IMG/VR virus record: IMGVR_UViG_3300043823_000274
Span: 1-23,728 of that record
Strand: one strand, 5' to 3'
DNA: 23,728 bases
Origin: a virus
Shown in pieces: positions 5,125 through 19,423 of this stretch (position 1 is the first letter of the stretch; the number at the start of each line of letters is the position of its first letter). Both the position numbers and the translations under genes were made by a program. Under the pieces are notes generated by a model, which had not been told where the DNA came from, did no database searches, and saw only the letters and a program-made list of their open reading frames with translations.

Positions 5125-5157
5125 GCCGAAGTCTCCTCGGCACTTGCCGCAAGGCAA
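5125..5157 (+). other. Two hairpins between the last late gene and its terminator
   Basis: The first hairpin pairs GCCGA (5125-5129) with TCGGC (5137-5141). The second pairs TTGCC (5144-5148) with GGCAA (5153-5157) around a GCAA loop, a GNRA tetraloop. The terminator stem begins at the next base, so three stems lie in a row. They may protect the 3' end of late mRNA; that function is inferred. Confidence 0.5.
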
Positions 5158-5205
5158 CCCTCTCAGCGCGCCCCCTTACAAGATTGCTGAGAGGGTATTT
5201 TTTTT
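5158..5205 (+). terminator. Rho-independent terminator of the late module
   Basis: A perfect 10-bp stem pairs CCCTCTCAGC (5158-5167) with GCTGAGAGGG (5186-5195) around an 18-base loop. It is followed by TA and a run of T. It lies 38 bases after the last plus-strand structural gene and faces the end of the convergent minus-strand operon. Confidence 0.9.
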
Positions 5206-11589: not shown

Positions 11590-11760
11590 GTCTGATGTGG
11601 CAGTCAGGCGTAGAGGAAAAAGTATGACCCCAGACCGTTTAAGTGTGGGGCGTGTAGATGAAGCGTTTACCCCTCGAAGGTAAAAATCTTTTTTCTCGAC
11701 GCCCAGTCTGCCCTCGCCAAGGGCCGCTCCACACTTAAATGTTCTGGGGTTTTTCTTTTG
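11590..11760 (+). ncRNA. Structured RNA 1: 22-bp closing stem with a branched interior
   Basis: Bases 11627-11648 pair with 11729-11750 over 22 positions with one mismatch and one G-U pair. Inside are GGGCGT (11648-11653) with ACGCCC (11699-11704), enclosing the hairpin TTTACC (11666-11671) / GGTAAA (11679-11684), then a hairpin GCCCT (11710-11714) / AGGGC (11720-11724). This folds as a branched junction. T5CT4 follows at once, so the whole could end by intrinsic termination. The stem is far longer than an ordinary terminator. The exact 5' end is inferred from a promoter-like sequence. No known RNA family is recognised. A 19-codon frame with a ribosome site overlaps the left arm. Confidence 0.55.
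11624..11683 (+). CDS. Possible 19-residue leader peptide in structured RNA 1
   Basis: The frame from ATG 11624 reads MTPDRLSVGRVDEAFTPRR, preceded by GAGG (11613-11616) seven bases upstream. It runs through the left arm of the long stem and stops in an inner hairpin. If translated, ribosomes would open the stem, as in attenuation leaders. It is too short to judge from codon use and may be chance. Confidence 0.25.
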   Translation: MTPDRLSVGRVDEAFTPRR

Positions 11761-12014
11761 GCACTCAGACCGCCAAACTGGTCGCTCACTCGCGGCTGCG
11801 GTTTGGGGAAAGCTCTACAGTGGGAAAGACGTTGAGATAGAGCTAGGGGTGGCGAAGGCAGCGCCCCAACGTCGAACGGCTACCGAGGTGTCAGGCTCCG
11901 ACTCGACATAAAGGCTCCCCAGAGGCTACGGTCTCTGGGAAGGCTGAGGAATCCCACCAACCCAACAGACTAACTAGGATTAACCGTTAAGTACTCTTAC
12001 TGATATATTTTTTT
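11761..12014 (+). ncRNA. Structured RNA 2: hairpins and a pseudoknot, unknown family
   Basis: No reading frame of note is present but many helices are. A hairpin spans 11773-11806 (CCAAACTG / CGGTTTGG plus an inner stem). AGCTCTA (11811-11817) pairs with TAGAGCT (11838-11844), while GACGTTG (11828-11834) in its loop pairs with CAACGTC (11867-11873), a pseudoknot. A small hairpin GGCG (11851-11854) / CGCC (11862-11865) sits between. CCCAGAGGC (11918-11926) pairs with GTCTCTGGG (11931-11939) around a TACG loop. GTGGGA (11820-11825) may pair with TCCCAC (11952-11957). A T8 run lies at 12007-12014. The function is unknown. Confidence 0.55.
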
Positions 12015-12069: not shown

Positions 12070-12678
12070 ATGGAAACACTAGACGAGTCAGTCCTTTTCC
12101 CTTCTACGGTATACGCGATCAAGAAGCCTGAGTTTCTTGAAGTGGTTAGTAAGGTCTCGGCGCAGTATATGCAAGCGTATAAGCCCAACGAACCTCAGAT
12201 GACAGTTATGACTGGCGGTTTTGCGCATGAACCTGAAGTCAAGGACTTTGCTCAATACGTTTCCCAGACCGCATGGAATATCCTCAAGTCACAAGGATTC
12301 GCTATGGATAATCTTGTGACCTACTTCATGGAAATGTGGACACAGGAACATAACAATCACAGCCACATGGAGTACCACGTTCACGGACTGGGCGCTCAGA
12401 TATCGGCGTTTTACTTTCTGGAAACTCCACCCGAAGGCTGTCGGTTAATTCTCCACGACCCTCGTCCGGCCAAAGTGATTACGAACTTACCAGAGAAGGA
12501 CTTTAGCAAGGTTAGCGCGGCATCCACCCAGATCGTTTTTACCCCAAATGCAGGTACGTTGTTCTTTGCCCCTGCGTGGTTGCCGCACAGCTTCAGCAAA
12601 AATATGGATGAAAAGCCAACGGTATTTGTCCACATGAATTTAGGGGTTGTTGCCGCACCGCAAGCCGAGGTTATATGA
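12070..12678 (+). CDS. 2OG-Fe(II)-dependent oxygenase
   Basis: I chose ATG 12070 (202 residues), preceded by GGAG; an in-frame TTG at 12058 would overlap that site. Family marks are EYHVHG (101-106, His 103 and His 105 as first metal ligand region), ISAFYFLETP (111-120), LILHDPRP (127-133) and GTLFFAPAWLPHSF (162-175) with His 173 as the distal iron ligand, then FVHMN. This matches the phage 2OG-Fe(II) oxygenase group found often in aquatic phages. The enzymes use 2-oxoglutarate and oxygen to hydroxylate a substrate; the phage substrate is unknown (protein or nucleic acid). It is the first gene after the structured RNA region and is coupled to the next gene by ATGA. Confidence 0.8.
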   Translation: METLDESVLFPSTVYAIKKPEFLEVVSKVSAQYMQAYKPNEPQMTVMTGGFAHEPEVKDFAQYVSQTAWNILKSQGFAMDNLVTYFMEMWTQEHNNHSHMEYHVHGLGAQISAFYFLETPPEGCRLILHDPRPAKVITNLPEKDFSKVSAASTQIVFTPNAGTLFFAPAWLPHSFSKNMDEKPTVFVHMNLGVVAAPQAEVI

Positions 12679-12899
12679 AATTTAAAATCCGATTCAACAA
12701 AACGAGGGGTCAAATGGGAAGAGGAACACCAGAACACGCTTGGCGGGTCTTTGCGGATGGCAAAGAGTACATTGTGAAAAATGTCATTATCCTTGTTCCC
12801 TCGAAGGGAGAAAAGGACGAGAACGGTCAGGACTGGAACATCACCGCCGATGGTAGCTTAACGATTGATAGAGATACGAGTACCATCACTATCTCTTGA
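12675..12899 (+). CDS. Small hypothetical protein next to the oxygenase (74 aa)
   Basis: ATG 12675 overlaps the oxygenase stop (ATGA). The 74 residues are beta-rich: HAWRVFADGKEYIVKNVII, then VPSKGEKDENGQDWNI and a C-terminal Thr/Ile/Ser strand. The pattern resembles small phage proteins seen beside oxygenases, but I cannot name a family. Coupling suggests it works with, or is dosed with, the oxygenase. The -35 of the resolvase promoter lies at its stop codon. Confidence 0.65.
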   Translation: MKFKIRFNKTRGQMGRGTPEHAWRVFADGKEYIVKNVIILVPSKGEKDENGQDWNITADGSLTIDRDTSTITIS

Positions 12900-12924
12900 C
12901 AACTCTTAAACTTCCAGTTATAGT
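12896..12924 (+). promoter_or_regulatory. Sigma-70-type promoter P1, upstream of the resolvase
   Basis: TTGACA (12896-12901), spacer ACTCTTAAACTTCCAGT (17 bases) and TATAGT (12919-12924) form a near-consensus promoter. The spacer is shared with three other promoters in the window (near 16431, 17963 and 19401). Transcription would start near 12931. Confidence 0.85.
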
Positions 12925-12953
12925 CTCCTGAAATGACCAAAAAGGAGACTATA
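12919..12953 (+). promoter_or_regulatory. Hairpin that hides the resolvase ribosome site in readthrough mRNA
   Basis: TATAGTCTCCT (12919-12929) and AGGAGACTATA (12943-12953) form a perfect 11-bp inverted repeat. The right arm contains the Shine-Dalgarno AGGAG and ends at the start codon. The left arm is the -10 box and start region of P1, so RNA made from P1 lacks most of the left arm and cannot form the hairpin. Confidence 0.75.
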
Positions 12954-13408
12954 TGATTGTGGGGATAGATCCGGGGAACAGTGGGGCGTTAGTGGCGCTA
13001 TACAACGACGACCCCATTGACCAAATTAAAATGCCCTTGGTGCAACAAGGCAAATCATGGCGAGTCAATTCCAAAGCGGTCGCTAAATTTTTGCGTGAAG
13101 TTTCACCGTGGAAGGTATACATCGAAAACGTCCACTCTATGCCCAAACAAGGCGTAGCCTCTACCTTTACCTTCGGACACGCCGCAGGAGCCGTGTGGGG
13201 CATTTGTGGGGCTTTAAACATTGACGTTGTTTTGGTAGATCCGGCAATGTGGAAAAGAAAAGCAGGGCTTCTTAAATCCACCAAAGACGACTCACGGCTG
13301 AAGGCTCAAGAGATATGGCCTTTGTGGGAATCACTCAACAAGAAAGCATTAGGTCAGGCGTACGCCGAGGCCGCGATGATTGCTTACTTCGGAAACAAGA
13401 ACAAATAA
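12953..13408 (+). CDS. RuvC-like Holliday junction resolvase
   Basis: The protein has 151 residues. It begins with the RNase H-fold strand MIVGIDPGNSGAL (Asp 6), followed by VYIENV (Glu 58) and FGHAAGAVWGI (74-84), then VDPAMWKRKAG (95-105) and the C-terminal helix GQAYAEAAMIAYF, where Glu 139 stands at the usual last acidic position (often Asp). The family cuts four-way DNA junctions symmetrically with two metal ions; phages use it to clear branched DNA before packaging. AGGAG lies about five bases before ATG 12953, inside the 11-bp hairpin. The same control logic is known for the unrelated T4 resolvase gene 49. Confidence 0.85.
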   Translation: MIVGIDPGNSGALVALYNDDPIDQIKMPLVQQGKSWRVNSKAVAKFLREVSPWKVYIENVHSMPKQGVASTFTFGHAAGAVWGICGALNIDVVLVDPAMWKRKAGLLKSTKDDSRLKAQEIWPLWESLNKKALGQAYAEAAMIAYFGNKNK

Positions 13409-16424: not shown

Positions 16425-16453
16425 GACATTAGTCTTTAACTAGTTGTTATACT
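16425..16453 (+). promoter_or_regulatory. Promoter P4 of the shared-spacer family
   Basis: Spacer AGTCTTTAACTAGTTGT (16431-16447) and TATACT (16448-16453) match the family; the -35 is a poor GACATT. The -35 weakness suggests help from a protein that reads the spacer. Transcription would start near 16460. Confidence 0.65.
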
Positions 16454-16459
16454 CTTATC

Positions 16460-16476
16460 ACCTCGACGTTGAGGGT
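16460..16476 (+). promoter_or_regulatory. 5'-terminal leader hairpin, copy 1
   Basis: ACCTCGACGTTGAGGGT folds with CCTC / GAGG plus a G-U pair, and starts at the expected first base of P4 RNA. The same hairpin occurs at 19430-19446 with one compensatory pair change (T-A to G-C). Confidence 0.65.
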
Positions 16477-16494
16477 TATTTACGGAGCATGACG

Positions 16495-16788
16495 ATGAAC
16501 GCAGTTTTACAGTTTCCCGAAACCGCCAACCACATCATTGACCAATATGTGGTGATCGACCAAAAGATTAAGGCGTTACAAGAACAAGCCGACATCATTA
16601 AAGACGAACTCAAAAAACGATACGGCAAAGGTACGCATCGCGGATTTCAGTATGGAATCAAAATAGACGAATCAACATCAACAACCTTCCTCAAAGACAA
16701 ACTTTTCGAGGACTTGGGTCTTAGTAAAGACGAGCAAAAGTCTTATCACACGAGCAAATCAATATTAAAATTAACCGTAGTAATTTAA
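16495..16788 (+). CDS. Small hypothetical protein behind P4 (97 aa)
   Basis: I chose ATG 16495, seven bases after GGAG. The ATG at 16489 would be only one base from that site. The product begins MNAVLQFPETANHIIDQY and has a coiled-coil-like helix (IDQKIKALQEQADIIKDELKKRYG) followed by a beta/alpha region. It is not recognised. It has its own promoter and is followed by a tetraloop hairpin. Confidence 0.65.
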   Translation: MNAVLQFPETANHIIDQYVVIDQKIKALQEQADIIKDELKKRYGKGTHRGFQYGIKIDESTSTTFLKDKLFEDLGLSKDEQKSYHTSKSILKLTVVI

Positions 16789-17655: not shown

Positions 17656-17960
17656 ACGTACAAGAATTTGACGATGATCACAAACGATATTTGGAGATTG
17701 TATTGGAGTTGGCAGACCCTTACAGTAAACTGGTATCTGATTTAATAAAGAAAGAGAAAATCCCAGTAGTAGTTATGGCGTTGCAACATTTGGGCATTAA
17801 ATTCATAAGCGGCGCTCTCTTGGTTTTAAACCAAGAACAACAAGATGCCAGAAAAATTTTTGATTTAATAGGCCATGCAATATGGTCTGATTATCTGGAC
17901 TTGAGGGAAGATCAAAAAAATGCTTTAGATAAAATGGCTAATTTACGCAGGGGACATTGA
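17652..17960 (+). CDS. Hypothetical protein (102 aa)
   Basis: ATG 17652 overlaps the upstream stop. The product is helical and charged, with a hydrophobic run in the middle (IPVVVMALQHLGIKFISGALLVL, about residues 37-59) that could be one buried or membrane-associated helix. The end of the gene contains the -35 of promoter P2. It is not recognised. Confidence 0.6.
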   Translation: MNVQEFDDDHKRYLEIVLELADPYSKLVSDLIKKEKIPVVVMALQHLGIKFISGALLVLNQEQQDARKIFDLIGHAIWSDYLDLREDQKNALDKMANLRRGH

Positions 17961-17985
17961 CAAGTCTTAAACTATCAGTTAAAAT
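17957..17985 (+). promoter_or_regulatory. Promoter P2 of the shared-spacer family
   Basis: TTGACA (17957-17962), spacer AGTCTTAAACTATCAGT (17 bases) and TAAAAT (17980-17985) lie 25 bases before the next start codon. The spacer matches P1 (12902), P3 (19401) and P4 (16431). Confidence 0.8.
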
Positions 17986-19337: not shown

Positions 19338-19377
19338 CCCCTATTGCGCTAATAAGTAGGGATAACATTTCGTTACA
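19338..19377 (+). repeat. Intergenic hairpin repeat, copy B
   Basis: CCCTA (19339-19343) pairs with TAGGG (19357-19361), followed by ATAACATT and GTTACAA as in copy A. It lies directly upstream of promoter P3. Confidence 0.6.
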
Positions 19378-19394
19378 ATTTGTTTGAAAATAGG

Positions 19395-19423
19395 CACACA
19401 ACTCTTTAACTTTGAGTTATTAT
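19395..19423 (+). promoter_or_regulatory. Promoter P3 of the shared-spacer family
   Basis: Spacer ACTCTTTAACTTTGAGT (19401-19417) and TATTAT (19418-19423) match the family, with a poor -35 (CACACA). Transcription would start near 19430. Confidence 0.65.

Follow-up and report, generated by a model that had tools for sequence, protein, structure and literature searches.

A putative T4-like translational insulator conserved at the head of a phage resolvase operon

Several genes of bacteriophage T4 (e, soc, 49 and I-TevI) have their ribosome-binding sites (RBS) folded into hairpins on early RNA, and the hairpins are bypassed when transcription starts from an internal late promoter (PMC3014915, PMC2988022); the resulting difference for e is about 100-fold (PMC3014915). 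The same kind of arrangement was reported for mobE of phage Aeh1 and for T4 segB, in which a nuclease gene located in an early unit has an RBS hairpin and a late promoter of its own (PMC2988022). This promoter-dependent unmasking of the RBS is textbook T4 biology, so far known mainly from T4 and from a handful of genes. In the transposase genes of IS10 and Tn5, RNA that enters from outside folds so that the RBS is hidden, whereas RNA made from the element's own promoter leaves it free.

Here we analysed a 23.7-kb viral record (IMGVR_UViG_3300043823_000274; positions 1 to 23,728, hereafter the window), in which a replication and DNA-modification block precedes terminase genes at the right end. 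The genes, promoters and leader parts located below are all on the + strand. The gene of interest (12953..13408) encodes a RuvC-like Holliday junction resolvase of 151 amino acids, with a full-length match to phrog_1770 (residues 1-150; E 1.2e-28). Of the conserved acidic active-site residues, D6 and E58 are present, and the last Asp (in the motif GQAxADA) is replaced by Glu at residue 139 (13367-13369), the sole case among 100 homologues with this motif. Upstream lies P0002, a 74-residue gene (12675..12899) that marks the conserved slot described below, and upstream of P0002 is a 2OG-Fe(II) oxygenase gene (12070..12678, ATG at 12070; PF13759, E 5.9e-11), which is the likely source of readthrough RNA.

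Two further structures were seen upstream of the oxygenase gene. Positions 11771-11888 match the Rfam family RF02932, Betaproteobacteria-1 RNA (96 bits, E 3.6e-17), which is also present in the relatives L104, L161 and L174; this suggests that the hosts are betaproteobacterial and that phages carry at least part of this RNA family. Between the primase and oxygenase genes lies an inverted repeat that is long but imperfect, CCCCAGACCGTTTAAGTGTGG ... CCACACTTAAATGTTCTGGGG, with TTTTT behind it (11628-11760); it may be either a terminator or a structured RNA. The corresponding gap in the complete genome MW202545 holds five tRNA genes.

Promoter and inverted repeat in front of the resolvase gene

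The putative promoter P1 consists of TTGACA (12896..12901) and TATAGT (12919..12924) separated by 17 nt, which amounts to 11 of 12 consensus matches. By chance, 0.6 matches of at least 11/12 are expected per window, and two are present; P1 is better supported as a promoter by its family resemblance. Its -10 region lies in the motif AAC-N5-GTTAnnnT (12909..12924), a diverged form of the TCTAAC-N5-GTTAGA dyad that overlaps the extended -10 in front of many genes of the relatives. Five such sites occur in the window (12909-12924, 16438-16453, 17970-17985, 19364-19379 and 19408-19423), all on the + strand, with 0.73 expected and five or more in 0/100 shuffles. In this family, a stem-loop (CACTGC..GCAGG, ACCAC..GTGGG or ACCGC..GCGGG) often coincides with the RNA's predicted 5' end. 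We found 78 leaders of the family outside the P0002 slot, and none of the loci scanned gave an Rfam match for leaders of this type. Two sister promoters within the window have been delimited. One, with its leader (16438..16497), has a 5' stem-loop ACCTC/GAGGG and is the second match in the window (25.6 bits, E 1e-5) to the covariance model R1 described below; the other, TTGACA-N17-TAAAAT (17957..17985), is near-identical to P1 without the masking hairpin and serves as an internal control.

Transcription from P1 is predicted to start at 12931, 7 nt after the -10 element. At this position, 26 of 30 distinct leaders have a purine, and the base just before it is a pyrimidine in 26 of 30; in the window, the predicted start A12931 is preceded by G. 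A seven-codon open reading frame, MTKKETI followed by TGA (12933-12956), begins 2 nt past the predicted start and ends in a stop codon that overlaps the ATG of the resolvase gene; this is probably due to chance.

The sequence-only reading from which we started described a perfect 11-bp inverted repeat linking the -10 region with the Shine-Dalgarno (SD) and start region, and both the sequence and tests against chance confirmed it. The left arm, TATAGTCTCCT (12919..12929), covers the -10 element and lies within the stretch that is missing from the predicted P1 RNA. The right arm, AGGAGACTATA (12943..12953), extends from the SD AGGAG (12943-12947) to the A of the ATG (12953). The two are separated by a 13-nt loop (12930..12942), and the same space in relatives often holds a CCAC/GTGG stem-loop starting at the predicted start. 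Under a dinucleotide model of the window, 0.13 perfect repeats of at least 11 bp with loops of 3-25 nt are expected and two were found, the second of which (5157-5196) is a likely terminator. The hairpin itself was considered as a terminator and ruled out, there being no T run after its stem. The 47-nt region folds with -16.3 kcal/mol (z -5.66; 0/200 shuffles as good), while the fold of the 96-nt readthrough segment is unexceptional (z -1.42). Pairing of upstream sequence with the SD as strong as in the window was seen for 0.4% of 453 SD-led genes of these phages, when the best of 18 registers was taken for each gene. Neither the window leader nor the leaders of four relatives matched any Rfam family.

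Conservation of the element behind P0002

When conservation was sought through resolvase homology, the result at first seemed to refute the proposal. The resolvase alone as a query against viral contigs gave no relative. Among homologues with 39-57% identity gathered from phage records and viral contigs, about 90 distinct leaders (from homologues at most 57% identical) have neither the repeat nor the promoter directly before the gene, and the homologues usually overlap the preceding gene or start close behind one. Therefore, the hairpin does not belong to the resolvase gene as such. It follows instead a genomic position, the gap right after P0002. The absence of the repeat from relatives, which had been named as an outcome that would speak against the proposal, is thus found when relatives are chosen by their resolvase but not when they are chosen by position.

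At the P0002 slot, we collected 34 leaders (30 distinct) including the window, or 29 distinct leaders without it. Homologues of P0002 often have, directly behind their stop codon, a leader composed of TGTTAnnnT, 6 nt, a purine, CCAC..GTGG, a spacer, GGAG.. and ATG. The genes behind this leader differ among relatives and are unrelated small genes. Both P0002 and the resolvase gene are present in 40 loci, and in every one the latter lies downstream on the same strand at a distance of 57 to 2890 nt, so the leader stands at the head of the resolvase operon. Of these loci, the window alone has the resolvase as the first gene behind the leader; in the relatives, the resolvase follows 0.3-2.9 kb further on. 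The nearest slot relatives are only ~65% identical to the window in P0002, and a scan of the collection for leaders more similar to that of the window returned related promoters and no close sister.

RNA folding showed that most slot leaders pair the -10-to-+1 stretch with the SD. The pairing arm stops at the predicted start, the same point at which the apical stem begins, and about 6 of the 30 leaders pair weakly (L163, L057, L306, L233, L267 and L309). Within the promoter family, strong pairing of this kind characterizes only the P0002 slot, with a median arm-SD duplex of -9.5 kcal/mol against -3.6 kcal/mol at the other promoters. The covariance model R1, built without the window, found its best window match at 12916-12955 (26.0 bits, E 7.8e-6), and on 50 kb of MW202545 it gave one strong match, located at the P0002 slot (50 bits, E 3.7e-13). 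A separate scan for near-identical repeats returned five stretches, two of which, taken as leads, lie directly before an ATG in other phages. Both are -10-like/SD inverted repeats: one, at L082 610-640, accompanies TTGAAT-N17-TATAGT, and the other, at L083 5564-5604, precedes a gene that looks HNH endonuclease-like by eye.

Compensatory changes, which the sequence-only reading had proposed to look for in relatives, were found at the slot. Across the 29 relatives the outer bases of the -10 region are fixed (TGTTAnnnT), and variation at the three middle positions is accompanied by variation in the SD arm: TAGACT occurs with GGAGAGTC, TATATT with GGAGGATATATG (L130, L155), TACAAT with GGAGATTG (L152), TAGACTTCCC with GGGGAAG (L220) and, in the window, TATAGT with AGGAGACTATATG. 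Compensated variants appear in at least two well-supported parts of the P0002 tree. In an energy-based permutation test that permits bulges, the leaders' own arms paired better than arms dealt among leaders, which equalled them in 0/50,000 permutations (2/50,000 without the window), and among representatives below 80% identity in 16/50,000 (205/50,000 without the window). A strict, ungapped test in a fixed register gave only a modest result, 398/20,000 (636/20,000 without the window); it is weaker because some leaders use bulges. Since MAFFT alignment of all 31 sequences slipped the SD register, pair counts were limited to 15 cleanly aligning leaders. For these, 90.3% of cells are paired in the true register and 38-56% when the arms are slid by 1-3 columns, and their covariation score was matched in 4/500 shuffles.

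We also predicted by folding whether the SD is closed (unpaired probability <0.3) in readthrough RNA and open (>0.5) in P1 RNA. This switch is predicted for 64% of slot leaders, compared with 9% of 35 TGTTAGACT-class promoters located elsewhere in the same genomes and 8% of 453 further SD-led genes. For the window, the predicted unpaired probability of the SD is 0.00 in readthrough RNA and 0.74 in P1 RNA.

Proposed insulation and its alternatives

The anatomy of the element, its conservation at one slot and the compensatory changes between its arms can be read from the sequences themselves. We propose that the segment from -10 to +1 of P1 doubles as an anti-SD arm. RNA entering from transcription of the oxygenase gene and P0002 would carry the left arm, which would fold onto AGGAG and the start region, and the first gene of the resolvase operon would be translated poorly or not at all from such RNA. 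RNA made from P1 would begin at ~12931, just past the arm, so that its SD would be open and the RNA translated. P1 would thereby make translation of the first gene dependent on its own promoter, the guarded gene being the resolvase in the window and another small gene of the same operon in relatives. We consider it probable that translation of the first gene is barred on readthrough RNA and free on P1 RNA in this way, a form of translational insulation; here the start site, the readthrough, the translational effect and any timing are what we infer. A point against masking is the coupling of transcription with translation, through which the hairpin could be disturbed by ribosomes as they leave P0002.

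The chief rival is translational coupling with P0002, in which the SD stays hidden on polycistronic RNA until the hairpin is opened by a ribosome reaching the end of P0002, and the product is made in proportion to P0002. P0002 is always immediately upstream, with its stop 3-19 nt before the -10, and a terminating ribosome, which covers roughly 10 nt past the stop, would just reach the left arm in most relatives. In the window, however, 19 nt lie between the stop and the arm, beyond that reach, and the distance is not constant among leaders (3, 8, 13, 14, 16 and 19 nt). Coupling also does not explain why the arm should end where a conserved promoter is predicted to start transcription, and we regard it as rather unlikely.

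Two further readings are less likely than coupling. A repressor dimer might bind the dyad over the -10 and SD as a DNA operator, as the arm covers the -10 and the family bears another dyad, TCTAAC-N5-GTTAGA. Yet the distance between the arms ranges from ~10 to 30 nt among leaders, G-U pairs and bulges are frequent, the sequence shifts between lineages unlike a protein site, and the arms are not shared by other promoters of the family, as the median pairing energies given above indicate; an operator therefore seems improbable. The repeat might also be functionless, arising by coincidence of composition between a TATA-like -10 and starts of the AGGAG-TATATG kind, which are naturally part-complementary. 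The ~90 resolvase leaders without the repeat would fit this explanation, as would the weak pairing seen in random genes (median -5.3), but the slot-specific conservation, the compensatory changes and the contrast between slot leaders and promoters of the same class in the same genomes all argue against it, and we think coincidence very improbable.

The logic of masking and unmasking is supported by relatives at the slot, which keep the pairing through compensatory changes, and by the agreement of the arm with the stretch that the predicted P1 RNA lacks. Promoter-dependent masking is well supported, but on grounds other than those of the sequence-only reading. That reading saw convergent control of a dangerous nuclease, an argument left unsupported by an element that keeps its place while guarding different genes: relatives have unrelated small genes behind the leader, and the repeat stands directly in front of none of the other resolvase homologues examined. 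A T4-style early/late switch is likewise unsupported, as the upstream oxygenase gene in relatives has its own promoter of the TGTTAGACT class; no clear counterpart of this upstream promoter was seen in the window. With upstream and internal promoters of one class, insulation fits better than an early/late switch. We conclude that the sequences give good support to a T4-like translational insulator that is conserved at the head of the resolvase operon.

A broader reading, which we put forward tentatively and to which we give somewhat less than even weight, is that uncultivated phages forming a large and probably betaproteobacterial group possess a promoter class (a TCTAAC-N5-GTTAGA dyad over the extended -10, with RNA that begins with a conserved stem-loop) whose untranscribed -10-to-+1 stretch can evolve into an anti-SD arm, giving a modular translational insulator that keeps its slot as the genes following it are swapped. 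If this is true, the promoter would decide, by omitting the arm, which operon transcripts get translated.

Comparison with known systems

As in T4 e, soc, 49 and I-TevI, readthrough RNA here is predicted to bury the SD and AUG in a stable helix (an 11-bp stem), and a putative internal promoter has its -10 inside the 5' arm and its predicted start, 12931, beyond it, so that its RNA would lack the arm. The product of T4 gene 49 is also a junction resolvase, although of the endonuclease VII type, whereas the resolvase in the window is RuvC-like. The promoters differ as well. The internal promoters of T4 are of the T4 late type (TATAAATA), whereas P1 is sigma-70-like, with TTGACA/TATAGT in the window and an extended -10, TGTTAnnnT, in relatives. 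T4 sets early RNA against a late promoter, whereas the upstream and internal promoters of the relatives here belong to the same class. Furthermore, unlike in the T4 genes, the element keeps its slot while the guarded gene changes, and its effect is a predicted one.

The compensatory changes in unrelated, uncultivated phages suggest that such unmasking is a general way in which phages deal with overlapping transcription units. They also call for caution, in that readthrough RNA need not yield protein, and they provide a simple rule by which any phage genome can be scanned, namely whether the -10-to-+1 segment is complementary to the SD.

Like the locus in the window, mobE and segB are nuclease genes with an RBS hairpin and a promoter of their own, but they encode homing endonucleases inserted into other units and use T4-type late promoters. 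IS10 and Tn5 share the insulating logic of the window leader; there, a mobile element guards against unknown outside promoters, whereas here the readthrough would come from a fixed, neighbouring phage operon.
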